Assembly: GCF_001425165.1 (NCBI RefSeq)
Contig: NZ_LMDU01000011.1
Location: forward strand, 62,058-126,057
Reading direction: 5' to 3'
Length of the DNA: 64,000 bases
Origin: Pelomonas sp. Root405
Lineage (GTDB): Bacteria > Pseudomonadota > Gammaproteobacteria > Burkholderiales > Burkholderiaceae_C
Shown here piece after piece: positions 17,960 to 54,399 of this stretch (within the stretch, counting starts at the first letter, position 1; every line of letters starts with the position of its first letter). Under the pieces are notes generated by a model, which was given only the letters and a program-made list of their open reading frames with translations, did not search any database and was not told the origin of the DNA. Position numbers and translations under genes: made by a program.

Positions 17960-18001
17960 GCCGGCGCCCGGACACAGCGGGCTTTGGCTTGGCGGCACCG
18001 C

Positions 18002-18015
18002 AGGTAGCGCTCACA
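18002..18015 (+). promoter_or_regulatory. LacI-type operator before the sugar-acid genes
   Basis: AGGTAGCGCTCACA matches 12 of 14 bases of the shared box and lies 28 bases before the ATG of the FAH-family dehydratase, in the 83-base gap after the GntR gene. Its position would let the LacI regulator control the two sugar-acid genes independently of the GntR gene. Confidence 0.7.
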
Positions 18016-18042
18016 ATTTGGGCTCGCACCTGCCGACCCGCC

Positions 18043-23662: not shown

Positions 23663-24738
23663 GCCTTGCGCAGAGGGGGACGCAGGCGCGGTGCGGCGTC
23701 GGACTGGCGGCGCACCAGCTCGAAGGCCATCAGCTCATGCTCGCAGGGCAGCGGCTCGCCGCTGCGGCGCGCGCGGATGTGGCGCACCAGCAGGTCGACG
23801 GCGGCGCCGGCCATTTCCATGATGGGCTGGCGCACCGTGGTCAGCTCGGGCCAGATGGTGGTGGCCAGTGGCGCATCGTCGAAACCGACGACGGTCAGGT
23901 CACTGGGCACGTCCAGGCCCATGCGGTGGGCGATGGCAACGGTGGCCGCGGCCATGTCGTCGTTGCTGGCGAAGATGGCCGTCGGCCGCTGCTCCTGCGA
24001 CAGCAGGAACTCGGCCGCATCCAGGCCCGAGCGGTAGGTGAACATGCCCTGGGCGACGACCTCTTCCTCGGCGATGTTCAACCCCGCGTCGGTCATCGCG
24101 GCATGAAAGCCCGCCAGCCGGCGCGAGCTGCTGCTCTGGTAAGGGTCGCCGATGATGAAGCCCAGCCGGTGGTGGCCCAGGTTCAGCAGGTGCCGCGTCA
24201 TCTCGTAGGCGGCCTGGTAGTCGTCGATGCCGACGGCGCAGACATCGGCGGGCGGCTGGCCCGCGGAGACGACGACGGCCGGCGTGTCGGTCTCGGCCAC
24301 CAGCTTCAGCAGCGGCTGAGAGTCGCAGAAGGGCGGCGGCAGGATCAGGCCGTCGATGCCGTTGGCGATCATCTCGGAGACTGGCTTTTCCTCGCCGTCA
24401 CGCGCCGCTTCGCAGCGCTGCACGACCAGCTGCACATGGCGCAGCGTGGCCTTGTTGAGCAGGCCGATGAGGAACTCGTTGAGGTAGCCGGCCGTCGGGT
24501 CGATGTAGAGCATGCCGATGCGGATGGGCTCCGACCCGGCCAGATGACGCGCTGCCTGGTTGGGCAGGTAGTTCAGCTCGGCGACGGCGGCCTGCACCTT
24601 CTCGCGCGTGCCGGGGCGCACGTTCTGCTCGCCATTGATGACCCGCGACACCGTCATCGGCGACACCCCTGCGAGCTGGGCGACATCGGCGATGGTGGCG
24701 ACCTTGGGACTGCGCCCGGAGCGAGCGGTTGGCTTCAA
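23659..24738 (-). CDS. LacI-family regulator, likely controller of the xylan regulon
   Basis: This 359-aa LacI-family repressor has an N-terminal helix-turn-helix TIADVAQLAGVSPMTVSRVI (about residues 16-35) followed by the hinge NQAARHLAGS, then a periplasmic-binding-protein core (IGMLYIDPTAGYLNEFL, then ASNDDMAAATV and GFDDAPLATTIWPELTTV). There is no usable ATG before the helix-turn-helix. A TTG at 24738 with AAGGA just upstream is the best start. It lies between the GH67 gene and the uronate dehydrogenase gene, and an operator of the shared type is 27 bases upstream, so it probably represses itself and the xylan genes. The effector is likely a xylo- or aldobiouronic sugar, which is inference. 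Confidence 0.9.
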   Translation of the reverse strand: MKPTARSGRSPKVATIADVAQLAGVSPMTVSRVINGEQNVRPGTREKVQAAVAELNYLPNQAARHLAGSEPIRIGMLYIDPTAGYLNEFLIGLLNKATLRHVQLVVQRCEAARDGEEKPVSEMIANGIDGLILPPPFCDSQPLLKLVAETDTPAVVVSAGQPPADVCAVGIDDYQAAYEMTRHLLNLGHHRLGFIIGDPYQSSSSRRLAGFHAAMTDAGLNIAEEEVVAQGMFTYRSGLDAAEFLLSQEQRPTAIFASNDDMAAATVAIAHRMGLDVPSDLTVVGFDDAPLATTIWPELTTVRQPIMEMAGAAVDLLVRHIRARRSGEPLPCEHELMAFELVRRQSDAAPRLRPPLRKA

Positions 24739-24764
24739 AGGGGTCCTTCGAACGAGGGTGGGGT

Positions 24765-24778
24765 TGTTTGCGCAATCA
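24765..24778 (-). promoter_or_regulatory. Operator in front of the LacI-family gene (autoregulation)
   Basis: TGTTTGCGCAATCA (minus strand TGATTGCGCAAACA) is a near-perfect palindrome, with six of seven half-site positions paired. It lies in the 58-base gap between the GH67 stop and the TTG start of the regulator. It matches the shared box at 11 of 14 positions in the minus orientation. Confidence 0.65.
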
Positions 24779-24796
24779 TATTTGGGCTCTGCAGTC

Positions 24797-26917
24797 TCAG
24801 CCGCCGCGGCCGGGCGCAAAGTTGAATTGCAGCGCTTTGTACTCCTCGAGCGAGCGCTCCGGCGGCCGCGTGCCGGCCGGCAATGGCAGACCCGAGACCG
24901 ACTGGAAGTAGGCGATGCAGGCATCGCGCCACCAACGCGCTTCGGCCTCCTGCACGGCCAGGTAGGCGGCGACTTCGGCATGCCGCTTCGGGTCGATGTC
25001 GGCCTGCAGCGCAGCCCAGCGCTGGCGCAGGTCACCCACCGTTGTCACGCCGCGGTCGTACCGCGACACCAGCTCGGCCCACAGCGTGCGGCCCGAAGCC
25101 ATGCGGTGTTCCCAGGGCAGACGGTGGAACCACAGCAGAAGGTTCTCGGGCGTCGTCGCCGGGTTGGCAAAGCGCTGCGCCAGCTCGGGCGCGTACTGGG
25201 CCACCGCATTGCTGCCGCGCGGCGAGCGGTCGAAGCCGATGCCGTCACGCGCAGCGCGGTGGAAATAGACCGGGTTCCAGTCGGCGCGCTCCAGGTTGTC
25301 CACCCAGGGCGCGGGGCCGTGGTGGTGGCCGGTGCCCATCAGGTGGTGCAGGCCGAGCGGCGTCATGTAGTCGACCACCGCCTCGCGCGAGGCCAGCATC
25401 ATGGCCACGATGGCGTCGACGGCGTGCGGCCTCGTCGTGAAGGTCTGCTGCACCCACTCGCGCGCCACGGCGCCCGCGGCGAGATCCTGGTCCCAGGCCA
25501 GGCGCCCGAAGGCATACCAATTCGCCTGGTCGAAGTGCGAGCCGCTCCAGTTGCGGTCCGTGCCGATGTTGGCCACGCCGGCCATCGCGGTCACCTGGGC
25601 GGCCACCGTCGCGCCCTGTGGCTTGACGCGGGTGTCGGCCTTCAGCACCTCCTCGAACAGTGGCCCCATGTAGACGAGGTGCGTCGAGAAGCCGAGGTAT
25701 TCCTTGGTGATCTGCAGTTCCAGCGCCAGCGGCGTGGCGGGCATGGCGCCGAACAACGGATGGAAAGGCTCGCGCGGCTGGAAGTCGATGGCGCCGTTCT
25801 TGACCTGCACGATGACGTTGGGCGCGAACTTGCCGTCCAGCGGTTTGAACTCGGCATAGCCCTGGGCCGCGCGGTCGCTCGCGTCGGGCGAGTAGACAAA
25901 GGCGCGCCACAGCACCACGCCGCCGTGCGGCGCCAAGGCCTCGGCCAGCATGTTGGCGCCGTCCGCGTGGTTGCGGCCGTAGTCCTGCGGGCCCGGCTGG
26001 CCTTCGGAGTTGGCCTTGACGAGAAAGCCGCCGAAGTCGGGAATCGCCTTGTAGATCTCGGCCGCCTTGGCCTTCCACCAGGCGCGCACGGCCGGGTCCA
26101 GCGGGTCGGAGGTCTTCAGGCCGCCCAGTTCCGCCGGCGACGAAAAGCGCGCCGACAGATAGACGCGGATGCCATGCGGCCTGAACACGTCAGCCAGCGC
26201 GGCCGCCTTGGCCAGGAAGGGCGCGGTCAGCGAGTCGGCCTTGGCGTTGACGTTGTTCAGCACCGTGCCATTGATGCCCAGCGACGCGTTCGCGCGGGCG
26301 TAGTCGACATAGCGCGCATCGCGGATGTCGGGCAGCTTCCACCAGTCCCAGATCGACGCACCCGCGTAGCCGCGCTCCACCGTGCGATCCAGGTTGTCCC
26401 AGTGGTTGAGCAGGCGCAGGCTCAAGCGGGGCGCGGCGCGCACATCCAGCTTGGCGAGGTTGGCACCAGTCTGCGCTGCCCGCAGCCAGGCATGGCTGCC
26501 ATAAAGCAGGCCGAGGTCGGTGTTCGCCGCGATCAGCGTCACCGGCCGGCCCTGCAGCTTGACGCTGCGCAGCAGATAGCCCTCACGGCCCAGCTCGACC
26601 CAGGGCAGGGTCAGGCCGGCCGGTGCGTTGGCCGGTGTCGCCAACACCAAGGCGCCGTTCGCGGGCTTGCTTGCCGATGGCAGCGGGCGGCCGCCCAAGC
26701 CAGCCACGCCGCGCTTGAGTTCGGCAACGGCGACCTGCAGCGTCGGCGACGCCGGCTGCGCATGCACGACGCTGCGGGGCAGCGCGGCCTGGCTGGCGGC
26801 GGGCAGCGTCCGGTAGCGCAGCCAGAGTTCGTAGCCGTCTTCCACCGTCGCGCTCCAGGCGGGGTGCAGCACCGCGGCCAGCAGCGCGCCGGCGAGGGCT
26901 TGGGCCCATGTCTTCAT
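24797..26917 (-). CDS. aguA: Alpha-glucuronidase, GH67
   Basis: This 706-aa GH67 enzyme removes (4-O-methyl)glucuronic acid from the non-reducing-end xylose of short aldouronic oligosaccharides. A signal peptide (MKTWAQALAGALLAAVLHPAWSA) points to the periplasm. The GH67 catalytic region is present: KANSEGQPGPQDYGR (acid Glu), NGAIDFQPREP (Asp) and LELQITKEYLG (Glu). The ATG at 26917 has AGGAG upstream; the longer frame to 26995 lacks a signal peptide. It heads a minus-strand run GH67-LacI-uronate dehydrogenase-lactonase and is divergent from the hexuronate-type carrier, with one operator between them. Confidence 0.95.
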   Translation of the reverse strand: MKTWAQALAGALLAAVLHPAWSATVEDGYELWLRYRTLPAASQAALPRSVVHAQPASPTLQVAVAELKRGVAGLGGRPLPSASKPANGALVLATPANAPAGLTLPWVELGREGYLLRSVKLQGRPVTLIAANTDLGLLYGSHAWLRAAQTGANLAKLDVRAAPRLSLRLLNHWDNLDRTVERGYAGASIWDWWKLPDIRDARYVDYARANASLGINGTVLNNVNAKADSLTAPFLAKAAALADVFRPHGIRVYLSARFSSPAELGGLKTSDPLDPAVRAWWKAKAAEIYKAIPDFGGFLVKANSEGQPGPQDYGRNHADGANMLAEALAPHGGVVLWRAFVYSPDASDRAAQGYAEFKPLDGKFAPNVIVQVKNGAIDFQPREPFHPLFGAMPATPLALELQITKEYLGFSTHLVYMGPLFEEVLKADTRVKPQGATVAAQVTAMAGVANIGTDRNWSGSHFDQANWYAFGRLAWDQDLAAGAVAREWVQQTFTTRPHAVDAIVAMMLASREAVVDYMTPLGLHHLMGTGHHHGPAPWVDNLERADWNPVYFHRAARDGIGFDRSPRGSNAVAQYAPELAQRFANPATTPENLLLWFHRLPWEHRMASGRTLWAELVSRYDRGVTTVGDLRQRWAALQADIDPKRHAEVAAYLAVQEAEARWWRDACIAYFQSVSGLPLPAGTRPPERSLEEYKALQFNFAPGRGG

Positions 26918-40918: not shown

Positions 40919-43900
40919 TCACCAGGCCTTGAAGCGCCCGGTGATGTGCAGCATGTTCATGAACTGCAGCAGGCCGTCGTAGTAGCGCCATTTGCCGCTG
41001 GGCGGGTCCAGCGCCCAGAACGCGTTGACGAAGGGCGCGGCCTGCGCCTCATCCACCAGCAGCGCAGCCACGGCATTGCAGGAGATCAGTCCCTTGGACG
41101 GTTCGTCGTTCAGTGGCTTGCCGTCGACGGTGTAGAGGTGGGTGTAAGGCTGCTTCTGCGACGAGAAGAAGTTCAGCAGCTTGTGGCTGAGGCCGGTGGC
41201 TGCCGGGTTCTTGCCCCACCAGGCCTGGTCGACGCTCCAGTTCACCGCCGTGCGGAAGGCGTCGTAGCGAAAGTCCTCGTGCCCTTCCAGCACCTTGGGG
41301 CGGCCGTCGAAATGGGCGTAATCGGGCGTCAGGCCGGTCTTCGGGTGGGCGGCCTTGCTGAAGTAGGCGCGGCTGATGTCGGCGATCTCGCTCCAGCGTT
41401 TGCGGTCCTCGGGCTTGGCGGCGCGGCGGGCCCAGATCTCGTAGAAGGCCGGCAGGTGATAGGACGGGTCGCTGAAGTCGGCCGCGTCGCCCACCGGCAC
41501 GAAGACCACTTGGCCGTGCTGGGGCGAGAACATGGAACGCGCACCGTCCTTGACGCCGCCGTTCATCGTCTCCTTGTGCAGCATGGCGGTCAGGATTTCC
41601 TGCGCCTGGGCGTTGTAGTCGTAAATGCCCTGGCCGTTGCCCCAGCGCGCGGCCGCCATCAGCAGCGCGGTGGCCATGTACTCCTCGCCGTCGGAGGCGG
41701 GCACGGCGTCCTTGTCGCATCCTTTCGGCTGGCACTGCCAGCGGAAATAACTCTGGCGTGGGCCCGAGCGGTAGCGCATGTGCGTCCAGGTCCAGTTCCA
41801 CATGGCGTCGAACTCGGCCTTGCGGCCCATCTGCACGGCAATCATCATCCCGTAAGACATGCCCTCGCTGCGCACGTCGGCGTTGCCCACGTCCAGCACA
41901 TAGGACGCCGGTCCGTCCGGCGTGGCGGCGGCGGGAAAGACGATGCGCTGCTCGGGGCTGCCCTCGAAAAGCGATTGCCAGTACGTGTCCAGCTTGGCGG
42001 TGATGTCGGCCTCGGTGATGTCGGGCCGCAGCTCGCGCAGCAGGTTGCGGTACTTGCCGCTTTGGGCCGAACCCTTCACCAACGGCGTCGTCGCCAGGAC
42101 GACGGGCTCCAGTTCCAGGCGCTGCAGCACGGCGTTGTCGTCCAGGCGCCAGACGCGGATGGTGTGCTTGCCGGCCGGCAGCGAGACAGCTTCGGTGCGG
42201 AGCACGAAATTGTTGTTGATGACGGCGCGGGACCAGTCCTTTTGAGGCTGCGTGTCGGCCGCGCCTGCGGTGGGGATGAGGTTCAGCGTCAGGGTCTGCG
42301 GCTTGGCGTCATTGATGGCCACGGCGATACGGATGCCGCCGGCCTTGCGCACGTCGATGGTGGGCGCCATGTGCAGCAGCAATGCCCAATTGCCGCGCTG
42401 GGGCATGTCCACGTCGTATTCCAGCCGCACATCGTCGGCCAGCGTGGTGGCCGCGCGGCCCTGCGGCAGCGCCATGACGGCACCCTGGTGCTGGCCGAGG
42501 TTGGGAATGGCGGTCCACGCCAGGCCCTTGGCGCTGTGGGAATGGGAGAACTGCGTCGCCTCGATGACGAGCGACTCGAACGGCCCGGTTTGCGCGGACG
42601 GCTTCAGCTGCTGCAGCACGGCAGCGGCGTCCGCCGTGCCGGCCACGCGCTTGACCGCCGGCATGATGTTCTTCTCCGGCTGCTGCCAGTTCGAGTAGCC
42701 GATGTGGACCTGCAGCATCATGCCGGCCCACTTGCCGCCCGCGATGGCGTGGTACTGGTCGCTGATGGCCTGGTCACGCGCGAAGGCGGCCTCCGCCTGG
42801 TCGGCGAAGACGTTGGCGCGCGGGTCGTTCTTCGCGGCCAGCGTGCGGTTCCAGGCCACCGCGTAATAAAGGCGGTAGAGGTTGGCCAGCGCCTGCACCG
42901 GATGCTCGACGAGCTGGAAGTACGCATCCAGCTGGTCGGGCCGCAACGCGGCCTTGACCTTGGCGACGCGCGCCTCCAGCGCATCCCACTCGGCGATGCG
43001 GCGGCCGAAGTCGCCGCCATCCAGCGCGTCGGGCCCGACGATGCCGAGGCGGAAGCTGTTCGCATCGACCAGCTCTGGCTTGCGGCGCGCCGCGTACTGG
43101 CTGTAGCGCGTCACCAACTCGCCGATCTCGGCGGCATGCGCAGCGCCGAAAGTGGCTGCCGCCCAGTCCTTCGGGTAGGCCTTCAGCGCGTCCGCCGTCA
43201 TGCGCTGGGGCGCCCAGGCCATGTTGAGGAAGAAGTGGATGGGGAACTCGACCGGCTTGATGTCGCCCACGTTGACGATCCACAACGCGTCGGCGCCGTG
43301 CTCGCGTGCCAGGTCCATCTGCTGCCAGGTCTTCTCGATCTGGTTGGTGTTGAGCCACTTGTAGTTGCGCGGCCCGCCGACGTAGTCGAAGTGGTAGTAC
43401 ACGCCGTAGCCGCCCACACGCTTTGCGCCTGGCTCGGGCAACCGGCGGATCTGCCCCCAGTTGTCATCGGCAAACAGCAGCAGCACGTCGTCGGGCACCT
43501 TGAGCCCGGCGTCGTAGTAGTCCTGCACCTCCTTATAGAGCGCCCACATCTGCGGCGTCTTCTCGGCAGGCTGCTTCGTCACGTCGGCAATGATCTTGCG
43601 CTGGTCCTTGACGACGGTTTCCAGCAGCGTCGTCGCCGTCTCCTCGCTCATCGGCTCGTCGCCGTCGCCGCGCATGCCCACCGTCACGAGCGTGTCGAAG
43701 GGCTTGCCGTCGGGCCGGCCCATCATCCGCTCGATGCCGCCGCGCCAGAACTGGCGCAGCTGCGACGCGTTCTTGGCGTAGTCCCAGTGGCCGCCCTTGA
43801 AGCGCTGCCACTCGTCGTGCGCCCGCGTCATCGGCTCGTGGTGGGACGTGCCCATGACGATGCCCATCTCGTCGGCCAACACCATGTTCCGTGGGTCGTC

Positions 43901-44656
43901 CGCGTTGAAGGCGCGCGGCGGCCACATCGCCGGCCAAAGGTAGTTGCCCTTCAGGCGCAGCAGCAGCTCGAAGACATGCGCGTACATCTTCGAATTCGCA
44001 CCGCCGAACTTCTTCTCCGCCCAGGTGCTCAGCGCAGGGGCTTCGTCGTTGATGAAGATGCCGCGGTACTTGACGTGGGGCTGGTCGCGGCGAGCGCCAG
44101 CCGTCAGGTAGACATCGTGCTGCCTGTCGACCGGCACATCGGCCCACCACACCCAGGGGCTCACGCCCATGCGGGCCGACAGGTCGTAGGTGCCGAAGAC
44201 CGCGCCGCGCCGGTCCGAGCCTGCGATGACCAGGGCGCGGGCGACGCCCGGCCAGGGCTGGTCGATGACGACCTGGGCGTACGCCTCCCACTGGCCCTTG
44301 AGGTCGTCCAGTTTGAGCTTGCGCCGGGCGACCAGGTCGTCGATGACGGCGCTCTGGCCTGCCACGCCAATCACGACGACATCGGCCCTGGCGTCGCCGA
44401 TGCGGCTCAACAGCACAGCCGGACGACCGGACACGCGTTCCAGGTCGGCGGCGAAATTGCGACTGGCGTGCTTGAGCGCCGCGTCGGCGCCGGCGTCGAT
44501 GAACACCGCCGCCGGTTGGCCGGCCTTCACCAGTGCCAGCCCCCGGCCCGGATCGCGAGCGCAGGTTGAAACGGGCGCTTCGCAAGCGGCCGCCGGCATG
44601 GCGCCGAGCGCCGCAAACAGCACCGCGGCCAGCCAAGCCATGCATCGGAAGTTCAT
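40919..44656 (-). CDS. GH115 alpha-glucuronidase fused to GH8 exo-oligoxylanase
   Basis: This 1245-aa periplasmic or secreted protein (signal peptide MNFRCMAWLAAVLFAALGA...) has two catalytic parts. Residues about 30-700 are GH115 (SPWVWWADVPVDRQHDVYL, then KYRGIFINDEAPALSTWA, GTSHHEPMTRAHDEW, MRGDGDEPMSEET), which removes glucuronic acid from internal or terminal xylose. A beta-sandwich domain follows (about 700-860). Residues about 866-1245 (bases 40922-42061) are GH8: VRSEGMSYGM with the acid Glu, ASDGEEYMATAL and YDAFRTAVNW, as in reducing-end xylose-releasing exo-oligoxylanases. The start at 44656 is set by the signal peptide and by GGAG upstream. An operator lies 50 bases before it. Confidence 0.92.
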   Translation of the reverse strand: MNFRCMAWLAAVLFAALGAMPAAACEAPVSTCARDPGRGLALVKAGQPAAVFIDAGADAALKHASRNFAADLERVSGRPAVLLSRIGDARADVVVIGVAGQSAVIDDLVARRKLKLDDLKGQWEAYAQVVIDQPWPGVARALVIAGSDRRGAVFGTYDLSARMGVSPWVWWADVPVDRQHDVYLTAGARRDQPHVKYRGIFINDEAPALSTWAEKKFGGANSKMYAHVFELLLRLKGNYLWPAMWPPRAFNADDPRNMVLADEMGIVMGTSHHEPMTRAHDEWQRFKGGHWDYAKNASQLRQFWRGGIERMMGRPDGKPFDTLVTVGMRGDGDEPMSEETATTLLETVVKDQRKIIADVTKQPAEKTPQMWALYKEVQDYYDAGLKVPDDVLLLFADDNWGQIRRLPEPGAKRVGGYGVYYHFDYVGGPRNYKWLNTNQIEKTWQQMDLAREHGADALWIVNVGDIKPVEFPIHFFLNMAWAPQRMTADALKAYPKDWAAATFGAAHAAEIGELVTRYSQYAARRKPELVDANSFRLGIVGPDALDGGDFGRRIAEWDALEARVAKVKAALRPDQLDAYFQLVEHPVQALANLYRLYYAVAWNRTLAAKNDPRANVFADQAEAAFARDQAISDQYHAIAGGKWAGMMLQVHIGYSNWQQPEKNIMPAVKRVAGTADAAAVLQQLKPSAQTGPFESLVIEATQFSHSHSAKGLAWTAIPNLGQHQGAVMALPQGRAATTLADDVRLEYDVDMPQRGNWALLLHMAPTIDVRKAGGIRIAVAINDAKPQTLTLNLIPTAGAADTQPQKDWSRAVINNNFVLRTEAVSLPAGKHTIRVWRLDDNAVLQRLELEPVVLATTPLVKGSAQSGKYRNLLRELRPDITEADITAKLDTYWQSLFEGSPEQRIVFPAAATPDGPASYVLDVGNADVRSEGMSYGMMIAVQMGRKAEFDAMWNWTWTHMRYRSGPRQSYFRWQCQPKGCDKDAVPASDGEEYMATALLMAAARWGNGQGIYDYNAQAQEILTAMLHKETMNGGVKDGARSMFSPQHGQVVFVPVGDAADFSDPSYHLPAFYEIWARRAAKPEDRKRWSEIADISRAYFSKAAHPKTGLTPDYAHFDGRPKVLEGHEDFRYDAFRTAVNWSVDQAWWGKNPAATGLSHKLLNFFSSQKQPYTHLYTVDGKPLNDEPSKGLISCNAVAALLVDEAQAAPFVNAFWALDPPSGKWRYYDGLLQFMNMLHITGRFKAW

Positions 44657-44719: not shown

Positions 44720-44760
44720 GGAAGGTTTGCCCTGAGTGCGAAACGTCTTGTTTTGCTTTA

Positions 44761-44819: not shown

Positions 44820-46427
44820 ATGATCCGCAACCCCGTGCTGCCCGGCTTCAACCCGGACCCCTCGTTCTGCCGCGTTGGCGACGATTTCTACATCGCGACC
44901 TCGACCTTTGAGTGGTACCCGGGCGTGCAGATCCACCACTCGCGCGACCTCGTCAACTGGACGCTGGTGACGCGGCCGCTCAGCCGCGCCAGCCAGCTCG
45001 ACCTGCGCGGCAACCCCGACTCCTGCGGTGTCTGGGCGCCCTGCCTGTCGCATGCCGACGGCCTGTTCTGGCTGGTCTACACCGACGTCAAGCGCTTCGA
45101 AGGCAACTTCAAGGACGCACACAACTACATCGTGACGGCGCCGTCCATCGAAGGGCCATGGAGCGACCCGGTCTACGTCAACTCGTCCGGCTTCGACCCC
45201 TCGCTTTTCCATGATGACGACGGCCGCAAGTGGTTCCTCAACATGCTTTGGAACCACCGCACCGGTTCCATCGGCGGCCAGCCGAAGGCGCCGGCCTTCG
45301 ACGGCATCCTGCTGCAGGAGTGGGATGCGGAGCGCCGCCAGCTCGTCGGACCGGTGACCAACATCTACCGCGGCACCGCGCTGGGCTTGGTCGAAGGCCC
45401 GCACCTGTTCAAGCGCAACGGCTGGTACTACTTGATGACGGCCGAGGGCGGCACCGGCTACAGCCATGCCGTGACGCTGGCGCGCTCGCGCGCGCTGCTC
45501 GGGCCGTATGAGACGCATCCCCAGCAACATGTCGTCAGCAGCAAGGACGCGCCCGACGCGCCGCTGCAGCGAGCCGGCCATGGCCAGCTGATCGAACTGG
45601 CGAATGGCAGCACCTACCTGGCCCACCTCTGCGGCCGGCCCCTGCCCGGCACGCGCCGCTCACCGCGCGGTCGCGAGACCGCCATCCAGCGCTGCGTCTG
45701 GGGCGACGACGACTGGCCCTACCTTGCGCACGGCGGCATGGTGCCGGCGCTGGATGTGCAGGCGCCGTTCGCTGGCACAGAACTCAAGGCGCGCGGGGCT
45801 GTCCAGCGCAGCTTCATCGACTGCCCGGCCCTGCCGCCGGAGTTCCAGTGGCTGCGCACACCCCAGCCTGACCGCCTGTTCACGCTGACCGGCAGCGCGC
45901 TTCGGCTGACCGGCCGTGAGTCGGTCGGCAGCTGGTTCGAGCAGAGCCTGGTGGCGCGGCGGCAGGAGGACGCGAGCTTCCGGGCCGAGACGGCGATCAC
46001 GCACTTCTCGCCCGACAGCTACCAGCAGGCCGCCGGCCTGACGCACTACTACAACCGCCACAAGTTCCACGCCCTGGTCGTCACCTGGCAGGACGGCGTG
46101 GGTCGCGTGTTGAGCCTGCTGTCCTGCCCGGGCGACTGGCCGGACAACCGGCTGCAGTTCCCGCTGACGGAGCCCATCGCGCTGCCTGCAGACGGCCCGG
46201 TGCAGCTCGCCGCCGATGTCGACGGTGCAGCGCTGCAGTTCCTTGCCGACTGCGGCCAGGGCTGGCAGCGGGTCGGTCCGGTGCTGGACGCCAGCGTCAT
46301 CTCCGACGAGGGCGGTCGCGGCGAGCATGGCTCCTTCACGGGCGCCTTCATCGGCATGCTGGCCTTCGACACCAGCGGCGCGGCGCGCACGGCCGACTTC
46401 GACCACTTCGACTACACGCCGCGATGA
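44820..46427 (+). CDS. Beta-xylosidase/arabinofuranosidase, GH43 (second copy)
   Basis: This 535-aa GH43 enzyme has the same plan as the one at 29914: Asp13 (PGFNPDPS), Asp126 (SGFDPSLF), Glu192 (LVEGPHLF) and a C-terminal beta-sandwich. It lacks a signal peptide. The ATG at 44820 fits the shared N terminus; the longer frame from 44736 would cross the operator. Its stop overlaps the aldose epimerase ATG. The neighbourhood of arabonate-type dehydratase suggests it may release arabinose rather than xylose, but the sequence does not settle this. Confidence 0.93.
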   Translation: MIRNPVLPGFNPDPSFCRVGDDFYIATSTFEWYPGVQIHHSRDLVNWTLVTRPLSRASQLDLRGNPDSCGVWAPCLSHADGLFWLVYTDVKRFEGNFKDAHNYIVTAPSIEGPWSDPVYVNSSGFDPSLFHDDDGRKWFLNMLWNHRTGSIGGQPKAPAFDGILLQEWDAERRQLVGPVTNIYRGTALGLVEGPHLFKRNGWYYLMTAEGGTGYSHAVTLARSRALLGPYETHPQQHVVSSKDAPDAPLQRAGHGQLIELANGSTYLAHLCGRPLPGTRRSPRGRETAIQRCVWGDDDWPYLAHGGMVPALDVQAPFAGTELKARGAVQRSFIDCPALPPEFQWLRTPQPDRLFTLTGSALRLTGRESVGSWFEQSLVARRQEDASFRAETAITHFSPDSYQQAAGLTHYYNRHKFHALVVTWQDGVGRVLSLLSCPGDWPDNRLQFPLTEPIALPADGPVQLAADVDGAALQFLADCGQGWQRVGPVLDASVISDEGGRGEHGSFTGAFIGMLAFDTSGAARTADFDHFDYTPR

Positions 46428-47452
46428 CACCACAGGTCTTCACGCTGGGCGCGGCCGAGGGGCTGCAGATCCAGGTCAGCGACTTCGGTGCCCGCTGGCT
46501 GTCCTGTCGGGTGCCGATGCCCGACGGTAGCCGGCGCGAAGTGGTGCTCGGCCACGCGACGCCAGCCGATCACCAGCTCGAACCGGGCTTCTTCGGCGCC
46601 ATCGTCGGGCGTTTCGCCAACCGCATCGGCGGCGCCGCCTTCACGCTGGATGGGCGCGAGCATCGGCTGATTGCCAACGAGGGCGTCAATCAGCTGCACG
46701 GCGGGCCCGACGGCTTCGACCGCCGCAGCTGGACCGTCGTCGACCACGGCCCGCTGCACCTGCGCCTGGCCCTGCATTCGCCGGATGGCGACCAGGGCTA
46801 CCCAGGTGAGGTGGGCGTCGAGGTCGAGTACCGCGTTGACCCCGTGCGGGCCACGGTCACGTTGCATTTCGGAGCGCGCAGTTCGGCGCCCTGCCCCGTC
46901 AGCCTGACCAGCCATCCGTACTTCAATCTCGACGGCGGCACGCAGCCCGTCGTCGACCATCGCCTGCAGGTCACCGCCAGCCACATGCTGCCGGTGCGGC
47001 CCGACATGATCCCGACCGGCGATGTGCTGCCCGTGGACGGCACGCCGTTCGACCTGCGCCAGGCCCGCCGCATCGGCGACGGTCTGGGCCAGGGCGAACA
47101 GCAGCGCCTGGGCAGCGGCTACGACCATTGCCTGGTCCTGGACGACGCGGCCGCGCGCGGCGAGCAGCCCGCCGCCGAGTTGACGTCGACCGACGGCCGC
47201 CTGGCCATGCGCCTATTCACCGACTACCCCGGCCTGCAGATCTGCAGCGGCAACTACGTGCAGAACTCGCGCGGCCGCGACGGGCTGCCCTTCGCCCGCC
47301 ATGCCGGCATTGCGTTGGAGCCGCAGTTCTTCCCCGACGCGCCGAATCACCCGGCATGGCGCGAGCAGGGCTGCATCGTGCGCCCGGGCGAGCCGCTTAG
47401 CCGCATGATGCGGCTGGAGTTCACGAGCGGGAGCGGCGATGAAGAGGGTTGA
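46424..47452 (+). CDS. galM: Aldose 1-epimerase
   Basis: This 342-aa mutarotase interconverts the alpha and beta forms of aldoses released by the glycosidases. Recognised positions are GRFANRIGG, NQLHGGPDGFD with the catalytic-type His, SHPYFNLDG with the second His, and the late GIALEPQFFPDAPNHP with the Glu. It overlaps the GH43 gene by four bases at its start and the IlvD/Edd gene by 14 bases at its end. Confidence 0.93.
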   Translation: MTPQVFTLGAAEGLQIQVSDFGARWLSCRVPMPDGSRREVVLGHATPADHQLEPGFFGAIVGRFANRIGGAAFTLDGREHRLIANEGVNQLHGGPDGFDRRSWTVVDHGPLHLRLALHSPDGDQGYPGEVGVEVEYRVDPVRATVTLHFGARSSAPCPVSLTSHPYFNLDGGTQPVVDHRLQVTASHMLPVRPDMIPTGDVLPVDGTPFDLRQARRIGDGLGQGEQQRLGSGYDHCLVLDDAAARGEQPAAELTSTDGRLAMRLFTDYPGLQICSGNYVQNSRGRDGLPFARHAGIALEPQFFPDAPNHPAWREQGCIVRPGEPLSRMMRLEFTSGSGDEEG

Positions 47453-49163
47453 AGACCTGCGCAGTGCGCGCTGGTTCGCCAAGGACGATTTCCGCAGCTT
47501 TGGCCACCGCAGCCGCGTGCTGCAGATGGGCTACGGGCCCGAGGACTTCATCAACAAGCCCGTTATTGCCATCGTCAACACCTGGAGCGATGCCAACCAG
47601 TGCCACACCCACTTCAAGCAGCGGGTGGAGGACGTCAAGCGCGGCATCTTGCAGGCCGGCGGCTGGCCGCTGGAACTGCCGGCCATCTCGTTAAGCGAAA
47701 GCATGGTCAAGCCGACCTCCATGCTCTATCGCAACTTCCTGGCGATGGAGACCGAGGAGCTGCTGCGCAGCCACCCGGTCGACGGCGCCGTCCTGATGGG
47801 CGGCTGCGACAAGACGACACCCGGCCTGCTGATGGGCGCGCTCAGCATGGGCCTGCCCTGCATCTACCTGCCCGCCGGCCCGATGCTGCGCGGCAACTGG
47901 CGCGGCCAGGTGCTGGGTTCGGGGTCGGACGCCTTCAAGTACTGGGACGAGCGCCGCGCCGGGCGCCTGAGTGACCAGGCCTGGGCCGAGATGGAAGCCG
48001 GCATCGCGCGCAGCCATGGCACCTGCATGACGATGGGCACGGCGGCCACGATGATGGGCATTGCCGAAGCGATCGGCTTCACGCTGCCCGGCGCCAGCAG
48101 CATCCCGGCGCCAGATGCTAACCACACGCGCATGTCGGCCGAATGCGGGCGCCGCATCGTGCAGATGGTGTGGGACGACCGGACACCCGCCAAGATGCTC
48201 AGCGCCGGCAGCTTCGCCAACGGCATCGCGGTGGCGATGGCCATGGGCTGCAGCACCAACGCCATCATCCACCTCGTCGCCATCAGCCGCCGCGCCGGGC
48301 TGCCCGTCACGCTGGACGACTTCGACGCGGCCAGCCGCCATGTCGGCGTCATCGCCAACATCCGGCCCAGCGGTGATGCCTACCTGATGGAGGACTTTTT
48401 CTACGCCGGTGGCCTGCCCGCGTTGATGAAGGTCATGGCGGCGAAGCTCGACCTGAGCGCGCTGACCGTCAACGGCCGCAGCGTGGGCGAGAACATCGCC
48501 GGCGCCGAGGTCTTCAACGCCGACGTCATCCGCCCGCTCGACAACCCGATCTACGCCGAGGGCGCGCTGGCCGTGCTGCGCGGCAACCTCGCACCCGACG
48601 GCGTCGTCATCAAGCCCAGCGCCGTGGCGCCGCACCTGCTGCAGCACACCGGCCGCGCGCTCGTCTTCGACGACTACCCGAGCCTGAAGGCCGCCGTCGA
48701 CGACCCCGACCTGGACGTGACGGGCGACGACATCCTGGTGCTGCGCAACGCCGGCCCCAAAGGCGCGGGCATGCCCGAGTGGGGCATGCTGCCCATCCCG
48801 ACCAAGCTGCTGAAGGCCGGCGTGACCGACATGCTGCGCCTGTCAGACGCGCGCATGAGCGGCACCAGCTACGGCGGTTGCCTGCTGCACTGCAGCCCCG
48901 AGGCTTATGTCGGCGGGCCGCTGGCGCTGGTGAAAACGGGCGACCGGATCACCGTCGACGTGCCGGCCCGCAGCATCCGCCTCGAAGTCAGCGACGAGGA
49001 ACTCGCCGCTCGAAGCAAAGCCTGGACGCCGCCGCCCGCCCGCTACGAGCGCGGCTATGGCTGGATGTTCGGCCGCCACATCCTGCAGGCCCACGAGGGC
49101 TGCGACTTCGACTTCCTCGAAACCCAGTTCGGCGCGCCTGTGCCCGAACCCGTCATCTACTAG
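47439..49163 (+). CDS. IlvD/Edd-family dehydratase, L-arabonate dehydratase type
   Basis: This 574-aa enzyme resembles pentonate dehydratases such as L-arabonate dehydratase. Iron-sulfur and metal ligands appear in SDANQCHTHF, MGGCDKTTPG (Cys near 127) and GTCMTMGTAATM. It lies in a GH43-epimerase-dehydratase-RraA run, fitting oxidation of a pentose released by GH43, followed by dehydration to a 2-keto-3-deoxypentonate. No arabinose dehydrogenase or arabonolactonase sits beside it. Substrate is inferred; D-xylonate remains possible. It is a distant paralogue of the IlvD/Edd enzyme at 19209. Confidence 0.9.
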   Translation: MKRVEDLRSARWFAKDDFRSFGHRSRVLQMGYGPEDFINKPVIAIVNTWSDANQCHTHFKQRVEDVKRGILQAGGWPLELPAISLSESMVKPTSMLYRNFLAMETEELLRSHPVDGAVLMGGCDKTTPGLLMGALSMGLPCIYLPAGPMLRGNWRGQVLGSGSDAFKYWDERRAGRLSDQAWAEMEAGIARSHGTCMTMGTAATMMGIAEAIGFTLPGASSIPAPDANHTRMSAECGRRIVQMVWDDRTPAKMLSAGSFANGIAVAMAMGCSTNAIIHLVAISRRAGLPVTLDDFDAASRHVGVIANIRPSGDAYLMEDFFYAGGLPALMKVMAAKLDLSALTVNGRSVGENIAGAEVFNADVIRPLDNPIYAEGALAVLRGNLAPDGVVIKPSAVAPHLLQHTGRALVFDDYPSLKAAVDDPDLDVTGDDILVLRNAGPKGAGMPEWGMLPIPTKLLKAGVTDMLRLSDARMSGTSYGGCLLHCSPEAYVGGPLALVKTGDRITVDVPARSIRLEVSDEELAARSKAWTPPPARYERGYGWMFGRHILQAHEGCDFDFLETQFGAPVPEPVIY

Positions 49164-49165
49164 CC

Positions 49166-49876
49166 ATGAGCCCCGATACCCGCAAGAAGCTGATGGGCGT
49201 CAGCACCGCCACACTGTGCACCGCCCTGTTCAAGCGTGGCCTGCGCGGACAGTTCATTCAGGACGTCAGGCCGCTGAATGCCGGCCTGCCCAACATGGTG
49301 GGTCCGGCCTACACGCTGCGCTACATGCCGGCGCGCGAGGACCTGAACGGCATCGAGGTTTTCAAGAACCGCGAGCACCCGCAGCGCAAGGCCGTCGAGG
49401 AGATTCCCGCAGGCGCCGTGCTCGTCATCGACAGCCGCAAGGACGCGCGCGCCGCTTCGGCCGGCGGCATCCTGGTGGCGAGGCTGATGGTGCGCGGCGC
49501 GGCGGGCGTCGTCACCGACGGCGGCTTCCGCGACAGCCCGGACATCGCCAAATACCCCTTCCCCGCCTACCACTCGCGCCCGAGTGCACCGACCAACCTG
49601 ACGCTGCACCAGGCCATCGCGATCAACGAGCCCATCGGCTGCGGCGACGCCCCGGTGTTCCCCGGCGACATCGTCGTCGGCGATGCCGAGGGTGTCATCG
49701 TCATCCCGGCGCATATCGCCGATGACATCGCCAACGAGGCGGTCGAGATGACCGTCTTCGAGGACTACGTGCAGGAAAAGGTGCTGGGCGGCCGCAGCGT
49801 GCTGGGTCTCTACCCGCCGACCGACGCCGACGTGGCCGCGGACTTTGCGGCCTGGCGCCAGCTCAAGGGCCGCTGA
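49166..49876 (+). CDS. RraA-fold protein with class II aldolase metal motif
   Basis: This 236-aa RraA/HMG-aldolase superfamily protein is often named ribonuclease-activity regulator. It keeps the G-X20-R-D-X2-D pattern (GILVARLMVRG... to DGGFRDSPD) that binds the divalent metal in 4-hydroxy-4-methyl-2-oxoglutarate and related pyruvate aldolases, so it is likely an enzyme rather than an RNase E inhibitor. Its ATG lies two bases after the dehydratase stop, so cleavage of a 2-keto-3-deoxypentonate to pyruvate and glycolaldehyde is an attractive role, by inference. The last 14 bases overlap the convergent esterase gene. Confidence 0.85.
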   Translation: MSPDTRKKLMGVSTATLCTALFKRGLRGQFIQDVRPLNAGLPNMVGPAYTLRYMPAREDLNGIEVFKNREHPQRKAVEEIPAGAVLVIDSRKDARAASAGGILVARLMVRGAAGVVTDGGFRDSPDIAKYPFPAYHSRPSAPTNLTLHQAIAINEPIGCGDAPVFPGDIVVGDAEGVIVIPAHIADDIANEAVEMTVFEDYVQEKVLGGRSVLGLYPPTDADVAADFAAWRQLKGR

Positions 49877-51627: not shown

Positions 51628-52461
51628 CTAGGGCAGGAATGCAGCAAAGGTCGCGGCGGTTCCCGACCTCGCCTTGAACGTTGCCCCTGCCTGAGCGCGA
51701 TGGAAGTTCACACGGCGTAGCGACACCACCGGCTCGCCTTTGCCGACGGCATGCGCCGTGCGGCAATCGATCAGCGTCACGGAGCCGCCGCCGACGACCG
51801 TGAGCGACTCGCCCAACCGAATGACGGCGGCCGTGTCCTCGTCGACGCCCAAGCCGATAAGCCCGCCGTGTCGACTGGCGAGATCCATCAGCCGGGCAAG
51901 CCGCCGGCGCTGCGTGAAGTGCTGGTCGATGATGACCCCTGGCAAGAATCCCAAGCCCCTCGGGACGGGATCGTCGGACAGGTCGAGTGCGGTGGCGCTG
52001 TCTTCGCTGACATCGCCGCCCGGCATCCACGCGCCAAGAATGGATGCACCGGCACTGGTGCCGGCGAGCACGAGCCCGTCGTGGCGCTGCCGACGGACAA
52101 GGATGCGATGCGTGGCCGTGCCATGCAGCAGCCGCGCCAGGCGCTCTTGGTCGCCGCCGGTCATGAACAAGAGGTTCAGCTTCGCGAACTGCTCCAGCCG
52201 CCGCGGGCATTCGGCATCGGCGCGGGCACGGATGTCCACCCAATGCGCGTCCGCGCCCAGATCTTCAAAAGCTTTGCGATACGCCTGCCACTGGCGTTCG
52301 GGCTCGCGACTGGCCGCGGTCAATACACCGATGGACGGCGGCTGCGCCCCCGCCACGGCTGCGAGCGTGGCCTTCAGTACCGCCTTGTCGTGAGCCTTGT
52401 CTTCGTTGCCACCGATGGCGATGAGCGCGCCGCTGCGGCGCGTTTCGTTGGCTGTCTGCAT
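51628..52461 (-). CDS. Cyanophycinase-like peptidase, family S51
   Basis: This 277-aa serine peptidase resembles cyanophycinase: IAIGGNEDK at the start, FMTGGDQERL, the nucleophile elbow VLAGTSAGASILG, PGVIIDQHFTQRRRLARLM and GLGVDEDTAAVI. Cyanophycinases release beta-Asp-Arg dipeptides from the storage polymer cyanophycin; other S51 peptidases cleave Asp dipeptides. The ATG at 52461 (MQTANETRRSGALIAIGG) fits the family start better than the longer frame. No cyanophycin synthetase is in the window. It is divergent from an M14-type deacylase gene with a 140-base spacer. Confidence 0.88.
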   Translation of the reverse strand: MQTANETRRSGALIAIGGNEDKAHDKAVLKATLAAVAGAQPPSIGVLTAASREPERQWQAYRKAFEDLGADAHWVDIRARADAECPRRLEQFAKLNLLFMTGGDQERLARLLHGTATHRILVRRQRHDGLVLAGTSAGASILGAWMPGGDVSEDSATALDLSDDPVPRGLGFLPGVIIDQHFTQRRRLARLMDLASRHGGLIGLGVDEDTAAVIRLGESLTVVGGGSVTLIDCRTAHAVGKGEPVVSLRRVNFHRAQAGATFKARSGTAATFAAFLP

Positions 52462-52601
52462 GTCATGTGGCGAGTTGTCGATACGCAGCCGAAGGCAATC
52501 AAGGTGCCAGCAAGGGACCATGCAGCAGCCGTGCCCGGTGAGCTGCAGCAGATGGCAGGTGGATTGCCAGGAGCGATCCAGCCTGGCCATTCACCACGCA
52601 C

Positions 52602-53762
52602 ATGAAAATTCAATCTCATGAGCTGCCGACTGGCAGCGTTGGCACCCAGCGTCGTTTGCGCAGCCGCCATTTCGGACGCGTGCAGAGCGGCCGAAAAGCC
52701 TACATCCAAGCCTCGCTTCATGCCGATGAGGTGCCGCCCATGCTGGTGGCGCAGGCCCTGGCCGCAAAGCTGGAACAGTTGGAGCAAGGCGGACACATCG
52801 CAGGTGAGGTCGTGCTGGTTCCCATGGCCAACCCGATCGGGCTTTCGCAAGAGATCCAAGGTTCGGCGTTCGGCCGCTTTGCGCTGGCAAGCGGCAAGAA
52901 TTTCAACCGAGACTTCCGCAGCCTGGCGGACGACCTCGTCCCGCGCATCGAGCACCGCCTGGGCATGGACCCTGCCGCGAACACCCGTGTCGTCCGCGAC
53001 GCCAGCCGTCAGTTGCTGCAAGAGTGGGAGCCCGCCGACGAGGCGGAGGCCCTGAAGCGCCTGCTGCAGACGCTGGCAGTGGACGCCGACCTGGTGCTCG
53101 ACATGCACTGCGATCTGGAAGCCGCGGTTCATCTCTACACCGGCACGCCGCAGGTGGAAGCGTTCAGGCCGCTGGCCGGCTATCTGGGCGTCCAGGCGTT
53201 CCTGACCAGCGACTCGTCCACTGGGACGCCCTTTGAAGAAGCGGCTTCGCGCTTCTGGGCCAAGCTGGCCGACCACTTTGATGGACGCTTTCCGATCAAC
53301 AAGCTCGCCTGTCTAGCCGCCACGCTTGAACTGCGCGGCCAGGGTGAGGTGTCGCGCGAGTTGGCTGAACGCGATGCGACGGCCATCGTCGACTTTCTTC
53401 GGGTCACCGGCCATGTCGACGGCGAGCCGGCGCCGGCGCCGGTACCCTGCAAGGACACACCGCTCGAAGGCGTGCAGCCAGTCACTGCAAGGGCCAGCGG
53501 CATCGTCGTGTTCGACAAGGCGCCTGGCGACTGGGTGGTCACCGGAGAGCGCGTTGCCGAGATCGTCGACCCATTGACCGACGAACGCACGCCCATTGAG
53601 GCCGAAGTCACCGGCCGCTGTTTCGCCCGAACCAATCGCCGCTTCGCCTCCAAGGGCCGCGGCGCTGGAATAGCGTCCGCCGGTGCACGGTCACGCTCTC
53701 GACAGGAGGCCTGTTCGCGACCGCCGACGTGCTCGCCAGCAAGTCGGTGTGTGCCGCGGTAG
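52602..53762 (+). CDS. Succinylglutamate desuccinylase/aspartoacylase-family deacylase (M14)
   Basis: This 386-aa zinc hydrolase keeps the M14 metal ligands HADE (about residues 41-44) and DMHCD (His about 168), and the catalytic Glu in LELRGQGEV. The family removes acyl groups from amino acids or peptides such as N-acetylaspartate. After about residue 350 (NRRFASKGRG) the expected C-terminal motif is absent and an Arg/Ser-rich tail follows, so a small frameshift at the end is possible. It is divergent from the cyanophycinase-like gene, which may supply peptides for it. Confidence 0.82.
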   Translation: MKIQSHELPTGSVGTQRRLRSRHFGRVQSGRKAYIQASLHADEVPPMLVAQALAAKLEQLEQGGHIAGEVVLVPMANPIGLSQEIQGSAFGRFALASGKNFNRDFRSLADDLVPRIEHRLGMDPAANTRVVRDASRQLLQEWEPADEAEALKRLLQTLAVDADLVLDMHCDLEAAVHLYTGTPQVEAFRPLAGYLGVQAFLTSDSSTGTPFEEAASRFWAKLADHFDGRFPINKLACLAATLELRGQGEVSRELAERDATAIVDFLRVTGHVDGEPAPAPVPCKDTPLEGVQPVTARASGIVVFDKAPGDWVVTGERVAEIVDPLTDERTPIEAEVTGRCFARTNRRFASKGRGAGIASAGARSRSRQEACSRPPTCSPASRCVPR

Positions 53763-53784
53763 GGGATGCTGACTGTGTCGACGG

Positions 53785-54399
53785 TCATCCGCCCAGCGTG
53801 CGATCCTGAGCGCGGAACCAGTTCAAGGCTGCGTCGAAGTGGCCAGGATGGAAGTCCGGCCACAGCGAGTCCACGACGTAGATGTCGGCATAGACGCACT
53901 GAATGGGAAGGAAGCCGCTCAGACGCCGGCCGCCGCCCCAACGCACGACGAGGTCGATGCGCGAGACGTCGGACGACCGGCACTCGCCCTCACGCAGCCC
54001 TTGGAGGTCCCATTCCCATCCGTAGTTGACGAGGAAGTTCACCTTGATGCCGCGACCTTGACGCTGCCTGAAGCGCGCGAGCTCGGGCGGAAACTGCGGC
54101 GAGCGCTCGTCACCGACAACGAGCAGCGCACCGCCGCGCTCGGCGATCTCCAGCGCAAATCGAACGCAGGCCATGCGGAACTGCGCCGTCTGAGCGCTGG
54201 GACGCCTCGTGTTGTCCTGTGTGAAGCCGTACACCGACACCTCCTCGATGCCCAGGCGCTGGCAGCGCTCGAACAACGCCAAGCCCGGTGCGATGCCATG
54301 CGCGTAGCCGGCCTCCTTCGGTTGATTGCGCAGCGTTGCCCAGCGGCGGTTGCCGTCGGGGATGAAGCACACATGGCGGGGCAGGTGCTGTCGGCTCAT
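53785..54399 (-). CDS. Cis-prenyltransferase (undecaprenyl-diphosphate-synthase family), atypical
   Basis: This 204-aa UppS-family protein has HVCFIPDGNRRWA (catalytic Asp and diphosphate residues), EVSVYGFTQDNTRRP and DSLWPDFHP. The motif that normally reads RTSGExRLSNF appears as VVRWGGGRRLSGFLP, so the Mg-binding Glu of typical enzymes is not present. It is also shorter than housekeeping UppS and lacks the cdsA/dxr neighbours of the essential gene. It probably makes or moves a shorter or special cis-prenyl chain. Starts at 54399 or 54435 are possible. It is divergent from the unknown gene at 54578. Confidence 0.78.
   Translation of the reverse strand: MSRQHLPRHVCFIPDGNRRWATLRNQPKEAGYAHGIAPGLALFERCQRLGIEEVSVYGFTQDNTRRPSAQTAQFRMACVRFALEIAERGGALLVVGDERSPQFPPELARFRQRQGRGIKVNFLVNYGWEWDLQGLREGECRSSDVSRIDLVVRWGGGRRLSGFLPIQCVYADIYVVDSLWPDFHPGHFDAALNWFRAQDRTLGG

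Follow-up and report, generated by a model that had tools for sequence, protein, structure and literature searches.

A probable FlDet-like lyase of the RraA fold, named a ribonuclease regulator in annotated records, encoded directly after a sugar-acid dehydratase gene

Described enzymes of the RraA fold and of 2-keto-3-deoxy acid breakdown

The RraA fold is found in RNase E regulators, such as E. coli RraA and S. coelicolor RraAS2, and in enzymes, among which oxaloacetate decarboxylases have been reported. We know of no link between the RraA regulators and sugar-acid genes. In a literature search in which subscription journals are thinly covered, FlDet and the HMG/CHA aldolase were the only RraA-fold enzymes among the matches listed. 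FlDet, purified from cells of Flavobacterium sp. UMI-01, is a 237-residue member of the RraA family that converts 2-keto-3-deoxy-D-glucarate to alpha-ketoglutaric semialdehyde (aKGSA). It is inactive on KDG, KDPG, DEHU and 4-hydroxy-2-oxoglutarate, it is stimulated by Mg2+, Co2+ and Ni2+, and EDTA has no effect on it (PMC8563752). Its substrate is a six-carbon diacid derived from alginate, and its gene, unlike the one presented here, adjoins an alginate lyase gene and not an IlvD gene. The HMG/CHA aldolase of P. putida F1 (3NOJ) works in aromatic-ring catabolism. Its description assigns Arg-123 to the enolate and Asp-124 and Glu-199 to the metal, and it regards the majority of the fold's homologues as probable pyruvate aldolases (PMC5065237).

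Dehydration of a 2-keto-3-deoxypentonate to aKGSA, the reaction proposed below for an RraA-fold protein, is performed by enzymes of unrelated folds. The L-2-keto-3-deoxyarabonate (L-KDA) dehydratase (3FKK, 7C0C) belongs to the DHDPS fold and employs Schiff-base class I chemistry. FAH-superfamily 2-keto-3-deoxypentonate dehydratases (KdaD/XylX-like) carry out the same class of reaction, and the KdgD family also forms aKGSA. The IlvD/EDD enzymes known to us, which catalyse the preceding dehydration, act mostly on aldonates. Aldol cleavage, dehydration, and dehydrogenation followed by hydrolysis are the three known fates of 2-keto-3-deoxypentonate described in PMC6336799.

Gene, fold and conserved residues

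The stretch of DNA analysed, called the window, is 64,000 nt long, and all coordinates are positions within it. Four co-directional genes, joined by overlaps or a 2-nt gap, encode a GH43 glycosidase, an aldose 1-epimerase, an IlvD/EDD dehydratase and the RraA-like protein, downstream of which lies a convergent GDSL esterase gene. The features are as follows.

40919..44656, minus strand: GH115 alpha-glucuronidase fused to GH8, a single protein of 1245 aa; divergent neighbour
44820..46427, plus strand: GH43 glycosidase with a GH43_C2 domain; alternative upstream start at 44736; 4-nt overlap with the epimerase gene
46424..47452, plus strand: aldose 1-epimerase; 14-nt overlap with the dehydratase gene
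47439..49163, plus strand: IlvD/EDD sugar-acid dehydratase, 574 aa; NCBIfam NF009559 'L-arabinonate dehydratase' (a label doubted below)
49166..49876, plus strand: RraA-fold protein, 236 aa; NCBIfam NF006093 (PRK08245) subfamily, from profiles and an AlphaFold model
49466..49468, plus strand: codon of G101, first motif residue; G, S, A or Q in 44 near homologues
49529..49534, plus strand: codons of R122 and D123, aligned with Arg-123 and Asp-124 of the HMG/CHA aldolase
49541..49543, plus strand: codon of D126, last motif residue, from the alignment
49760..49762, plus strand: codon of E199, aligned in sequence with metal ligand Glu-199 of the HMG/CHA aldolase

A sequence-only reading of this DNA had described an RraA-fold protein with an intact G-X20-R-D-X2-D motif, starting two bases past the stop of a dehydratase gene. 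All three observations are borne out. The dehydratase gene ends with TAG and the RraA ATG lies 2 nt downstream; seven of 12 loci of the genus share this 2-nt spacing, and the other five have 1, 5, 8, 70 and 126 nt. Membership of the RraA fold does not rely on the motif because profiles and the model fold carry the assignment. The protein scores 108.2 bits against PF03737 (RraA-like superfamily; cut-off 24.5) in a Pfam scan and 336.7 bits against NF006093 (curated cut-off 208) in an NCBIfam scan, and structure comparison assigns its AlphaFold model (mean pLDDT 91.8) to the RraA fold. Among solved structures, S. coelicolor RraAS2 (5x15_A; Z 26.1, rmsd 1.7 over 196 residues) comes nearest, tied with 3k4i (Z 25.3), and the HMG/CHA aldolase 3NOJ gives Z 22.1 with rmsd 2.7 over 199 residues. 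The C-terminal domains of IlvD/EDD enzymes also match the model, at Z values of 6.6–7.8 that are possibly background.

RraAS2 is described as an RNase ES inhibitor, the NCBI name of the protein is 'ribonuclease activity regulator RraA', and the annotated plasmid records, among the matches listed, are all named ribonuclease activity regulator. A function as RNase E regulator is nonetheless highly improbable. The score against the corresponding family NF006875 is 36.4 bits against a cut-off of 136, the residues expected of an enzyme are conserved, and the gene is coupled in operons to catabolic enzymes across Beta- and Alphaproteobacteria. E. coli RraA shares the fold but is shorter than the window protein, and it is not known to carry the motif.

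The pattern G-X20-R-D-X2-[DE], which we take to be the type of RraA-fold metal lyases, occurs once in the protein (G101-X20-R122-D123-X2-D126). It is not strictly conserved among homologues: the full motif is present in 23 of 58 aligned homologues and R-D-X2-[DE] in 47. Position 101 is G in 21, S in 17, A in 4 and Q in 2 of the 44 nearest alignment rows, and position 126 is E in 33, D in 9 and Q in 2. R122 and D123, in contrast, are invariant (58/58), and E199 is E in 57 homologues and D in one. As a pattern on its own the motif is weak, since 18 of 1641 non-RraA proteins called in the retrieved loci match it as well. Residues D102, R123, D124 and E199 of the HMG/CHA aldolase fall on G101, R122, D123 and E199 in the sequence alignment; the D-X20-R-D of that enzyme, presumably the motif of HMG/CHA aldolases, is absent from the window protein, in which G101 stands in place of D102 and R122-D123 are kept. 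With its G and final D/E varying and R122, D123 and E199 retained, the motif is best read from the alignment as a general sign of a metal-dependent lyase of the RraA fold, and not specifically of an aldolase.

A class II aldolase would split a 2-keto-3-deoxy acid into pyruvate and an aldehyde, glycolaldehyde in the case of a pentonate, with the metal and R122/D123 acting as in the HMG/CHA aldolase. The fold shared with 3NOJ, the conserved R122, D123 and E199 and the prevailing view of homologues of this fold favour such a reaction, which we consider rather unlikely. The window protein stays below the cut-offs of the HMG/CHA aldolase families (TIGR02798, 67 vs 304.5 bits; NF006731, 75.6 vs 179 bits), the aldolase pocket residues Lys-147 and Arg-195 fall on L147 and M195, and no RraA-fold 2-keto-3-deoxypentonate aldolase appeared in the literature among the matches listed. 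The sequence does not separate an aldolase from a dehydratase because both would use the same metal enolate.

FlDet resembles the window protein in its RraA family membership and its similar length, and its N-terminus may be of the window protein's subfamily type. The N-terminal comparison covers the 19 printed residues of FlDet, and the match is strong for part of the subfamily only. The best of 58 homologues (locus L136) has 12 of 19 residues identical and scores 61, with a median of 33 and a score of 36 for the window protein. The highest score among 1641 unrelated proteins is 31 if one sets aside an RraA fragment in L047, a locus of genome G035 in which RraA is split. Scores above 31 are reached by 35 of the 45 nearer homologues, the window protein included, and by none of the 13 distant ones.

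Neighbours of the gene across relatives

A search of genome contigs for RraA relatives yielded at least 578 stretches, of which the best 80 were used (70–91% identity; Beta- and Alphaproteobacteria); these 80 loci therefore favour close relatives. Neighbours were counted by tblastn, and gene calls within the loci were made with a simple codon score that missed some genes. In 67 of these best 80, RraA has a PRK13016-type IlvD gene no more than 2.5 kb away on its own strand. An enolase-superfamily sugar-acid dehydratase replaces IlvD in 6 of 80 (L088, L091, L094, L098, L123, L139), and in one (L106) a DHDPS-type protein, 54% identical to L-KDA dehydratase, directly precedes RraA. No dehydratase was detected by tblastn in another six (L081, L116, L117, L120, L121, L135), some of them on short contigs. 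The gene is thus coupled to two unrelated dehydratase families. Because IlvD can be exchanged for a non-homologous enzyme with the same kind of function, RraA likely serves the step that immediately follows a sugar-acid dehydratase; the window protein is therefore probably the enzyme acting at that point and not an RNase E regulator.

The RraA query also matches 480 plasmid records, eight of which were examined (H3, H4, H6, H7, H8, H9, H15, H19), picked mostly because they are annotated. A second RraA-like gene, 41–45% identical, occurs close by on a Microvirga plasmid (L148 13264-13977) and a Terrarubrum plasmid (L190 80-865), near genes for a lactonase, a glucuronate isomerase or a mannonate dehydratase, which suggests diversification of the subfamily in the context of sugar-acid breakdown. 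Broken frames were seen in a S. meliloti record, where IlvD lies in two frames (L146 10171-11959), and on a Neorhizobium plasmid, where the aldehyde dehydrogenase is in pieces (L192 5324-6748). One family member (G030; L185 9097-10863) has a window-type IlvD, 78% identical, that is not followed by an RraA gene, and a close RraA is absent from its genome.

Other recurrent neighbours, counted on the RraA strand up to 6 kb away across the 80 loci, are TctC receptors (36), SMP-30 lactonases (11), aKGSA-type aldehyde dehydrogenases (6), 2-hydroxyacid dehydrogenases (5), other aldehyde dehydrogenases (ALDHs; 4), Ldh_2 proteins (3) and HpcH/HpaI aldolases (2). The six aKGSA-type cases are L066, L070, L128, L131, L139 and L141. 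Four further ones (L032, L035, L044, L051) are found among 33 loci (L032-L064), and three among the eight plasmid loci: the dehydrogenase gene is adjacent in Microvirga L148, which has an enolase-type dehydratase, and in Neorhizobium L192, where its frame is broken, and it is one gene away in Pararhizobium L191. In L051 and L044 it adjoins RraA or stands one gene apart. In Bradyrhizobium (L128, L131, L141) it starts about 50 bp past RraA, and L128 and L131 have an SMP-30 lactonase gene between IlvD and RraA. With lactonase, dehydratase and dehydrogenase present, these two loci would hold all steps from a lactone to alpha-ketoglutarate, if RraA makes aKGSA.

The dehydrogenases fall into two types. 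The main type shares 64–74% identity with the dehydrogenase encoded after KdgD in this genome. For five members scanned (L044, L051, one in L032, L148 and the home copy), the best NCBIfam matches are two aKGSA/2,5-dioxovalerate dehydrogenase families, below their cut-offs; the same library separates the ALDH of another kind in L103. In relatives of Roseateles and in a Rubrivivax MAG (L032, L035, L066, L070), a dehydrogenase of the second type (c29) is encoded ahead of IlvD-RraA. The NCBIfam match of c29 is weak (109.5 bits), which leaves its function less sure than that of the main type, and its relative in this genome, 44% identical, lies beside an arabonate dehydratase paralogue in an arabinan locus.

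The spread of this linkage was followed on a quick tree built from 108 RraA sequences, which excludes plasmid loci, proteins outside 190–275 aa or below 38% identity, and L037, L038 and L040 (from the same genomes as L067, L068 and L066). Linkage to aKGSA dehydrogenases requires 8–9 label changes, at least five of them forced by well-supported branches. Shuffled labels need 8.8 changes on average, and 91 of 500 shuffles are as low, an equally wide scatter. The linkage has therefore arisen or been lost repeatedly and does not represent one inherited cluster.

Neighbouring aKGSA-type dehydrogenases in several lineages imply dehydration. We tentatively prefer a function as an RraA-fold 2-keto-3-deoxy-sugar-acid dehydratase forming aKGSA, at a probability slightly short of even. 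The conserved coupling to sugar-acid dehydratases, the linkage to aKGSA dehydrogenases and the FlDet precedent support it. Several observations run against it: the linked dehydrogenase is found in a minority of loci; 4 of 80 loci carry another ALDH (L096, L103, L124, L127, with those of L124 and L127 33–35% identical to the aKGSA type); shuffled labels scatter as widely; 2-hydroxyacid and Ldh_2-type dehydrogenases would be superfluous to the route; some operons contain HpcH/HpaI aldolases; L106 has its DHDPS-type protein before RraA; the scanned dehydrogenases fall below the NCBIfam cut-offs; and FlDet is insensitive to EDTA.

The same neighbours bear on aldol cleavage to pyruvate and glycolaldehyde, which the sequence-only reading had proposed and which is not upheld: the motif is general to the fold, the aKGSA dehydrogenases point to dehydration, and separate HpcH/HpaI aldolases lie on the same strand in L112, L136, L045 and the Skermanella plasmid L149. 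ALDHs of other kinds recur less beside RraA than the aKGSA type, a further point against an aldolase. The recurrence of 2-hydroxyacid dehydrogenases near RraA would fit an aldolase. These dehydrogenases, whose genes immediately follow RraA in S. meliloti and Pararhizobium and lie beside or near it in L139 and Cupriavidus, would also suit another lyase step, either decarboxylation of a 2-keto acid, a reaction with oxaloacetate decarboxylases as precedent in the fold, or a split of pentarate-derived 4-hydroxy-2-oxoglutarate into pyruvate and glyoxylate, with a glyoxylate reductase acting next. Such a step is distinctly unlikely, and it leaves the aKGSA dehydrogenases and the SMP-30 lactonases of 11 loci unexplained.

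Partner dehydratase, substrate and proposed reaction

The window IlvD scores 1045.9 bits against NF009559 'L-arabinonate dehydratase' (cut-off 882), and a paralogue on another contig (L183:8412-10166) scores 839.1 bits, below that cut-off. The order is reversed against the crystallised L-arabinonate dehydratase (9evv), at 562.8 bits for the window IlvD and 825.7–828.1 bits for the paralogue. The window IlvD is not the closest relative of the crystallised enzyme in this genome. On these scores the family label is doubtful for the window IlvD, and the name of NF009559 may sit on the wrong clade. Arabinose specificity taken from the NCBI label of the partner was rejected, since the paralogue fits the crystallised enzyme better. 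From the coupling to an arabonate-type dehydratase put forward by the sequence-only reading, a sugar-acid dehydratase partner is retained (67/80 loci) and the link to arabinose is dropped.

That reading had also expected RraA to complete a non-phosphorylative route, an expectation at odds with the genome, in which enzymes for converting L-arabinose to alpha-ketoglutarate are already encoded elsewhere. The paralogue IlvD and an accompanying aldehyde dehydrogenase are surrounded by GH51-, GH43- and GH127-type enzymes (L183). A DHDPS-type protein (L169:9807-10745) scores 480 bits to solved L-KDA dehydratases and is flanked by a xylose-dehydrogenase-type SDR (336.5 bits vs cut-off 400), with lactonase-like and epimerase-like genes, both assigned by eye, and GH51-type and GH43 genes in the same locus. 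An aKGSA dehydrogenase gene adjoins KdgD, with a glucarate-dehydratase-like gene, again assigned by eye, alongside. With L-KDA dehydratase, paralogue IlvD and aKGSA dehydrogenase all present, the route is not missing a step.

Occurrence across 80 relatives, this genome included, separates the two gene sets. A close RraA (E <=1e-100) is present in 18, a window-type IlvD (at least 75% identity) in 17, both in 16, and an L-KDA dehydratase in 23. Of the 18 genomes with a close RraA, 14 have an L-KDA dehydratase and four do not (G014, G019, G023, G064); in G064 the IlvD is 68% identical and lies near RraA on the opposite strand. Nine genomes have an L-KDA dehydratase without a close RraA, and six of these (G003, G006, G007, G013, G017, G037) have a paralogue-type IlvD only, which in G017 adjoins the L-KDA dehydratase. 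We therefore regard the two sets as separate modules, and the window IlvD and RraA probably serve another acid or stereoisomer. RraA as a simple replacement of the DHDPS-type L-KDA dehydratase was considered and rejected, as the two co-occur in 27 of 30 named genomes and in 14 of the 18 relatives.

A second sugar-acid module lies in the window at 17279-20960, with a GntR-type regulator (by eye), an FAH-superfamily protein and a PRK13017-subfamily IlvD, and is probably a xylonate/arabonate-type route. The FAH protein (18043-19212) has 425 bits to 9kkt and 70 bits to the 2-keto-3-deoxy-D-arabinonate dehydratase 2q18, and its Pfam FAA_hydrolase score is just below the cut-off. It is probably a 2-keto-3-deoxypentonate dehydratase, KdaD/XylX-like, that shares a reaction class with the proposal made here but differs in fold and in having its own module with a different IlvD. 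The FAH-RraA fusion family NF009399 had no match in 250 genomes or in controls, which is not proof of absence.

The DHDPS-type and the probable FAH-type enzyme would make a third enzyme for such a step redundant unless its substrate differs, and this redundancy favours a different reaction or a different substrate. Since the genome already has a KDP-to-aKGSA dehydratase, a parallel aldolase branch would be less redundant, which counts towards the aldolase. The four relatives that combine a close RraA and an IlvD without the standard L-KDA dehydratase add to the case for the dehydratase that we tentatively prefer.

In the proposed reaction, the preceding dehydratase would supply a 2-keto-3-deoxy acid, derived from a pentonate or a hexarate and not necessarily from L-arabonate. 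A metal held by D123 and E199 would chelate the 2-keto acid, and R122 would stabilise the C2-C3 enolate. The enolate would then expel the C4 substituent, so that water is removed from C4 and aKGSA is formed; a six-carbon diacid would also lose CO2, as with FlDet. An aKGSA dehydrogenase would oxidise the product to alpha-ketoglutarate.

In the six-carbon version of this dehydratase, IlvD would act on a uronate-derived diacid, and RraA would strip both water and CO2 from the resulting 2-keto-3-deoxyhexarate to give aKGSA. This version makes up somewhat less than half of the preferred reading and is by itself unlikely. FlDet provides the precedent. In each of 13 loci of the genus, the IlvD-RraA pair has a GH115-type homologue upstream; these homologues vary in length, and the window's member alone was profile-scanned. 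The TctC receptors of 36 loci are of the carboxylate type. The window also contains, in a row at 21834-26917, SMP-30 lactonase-like, NAD-dependent uronate dehydrogenase-like, LacI-type regulator and GH67-like genes, assigned by eye and probably forming an oxidative glucuronate unit; an NCBIfam scan of these genes gave no firm family. Against a hexarate stand the preference of IlvD/EDD enzymes for aldonates, the restriction of the GH115 linkage to one genus, where it is possibly ancestral synteny, and KdgD with its adjoining glucarate-dehydratase-like gene, which already serve ordinary glucarate.

The GH115-type neighbour in all 13 loci of the genus, the chemistry of FlDet and the aKGSA-dehydrogenase linkage together suggest a more specific, very unlikely variant. 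Within the genus, IlvD and RraA would together break down the 4-O-methyl-D-glucuronate that the GH115 enzyme encoded next to them would release from xylan. The product of IlvD would be a 2-keto-3-deoxy-4-methoxy diacid, from which the RraA-fold enzyme would expel methanol at C4, leading to aKGSA, by the same enolate elimination through which FlDet would expel water. A literature search on 4-O-methylglucuronate catabolism gave nothing usable among the matches listed.

The window protein, on our analysis probably an FlDet-like RraA-fold lyase, belongs to a subfamily common in soil Beta- and Alphaproteobacteria, with at least 578 genome stretches and 480 plasmid records. If its members act after sugar-acid dehydratases, many 'regulator' annotations would be corrected, and the database label 'L-arabinonate dehydratase' of the partner enzyme would come into question. 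Formation of aKGSA by the window protein would add a third unrelated fold to those known to us as forming this compound. Farther downstream in the window, at 51628-54399, translations read by eye suggest cyanophycinase-like, aspartoacylase-like and isoprenyl-transferase-like genes.
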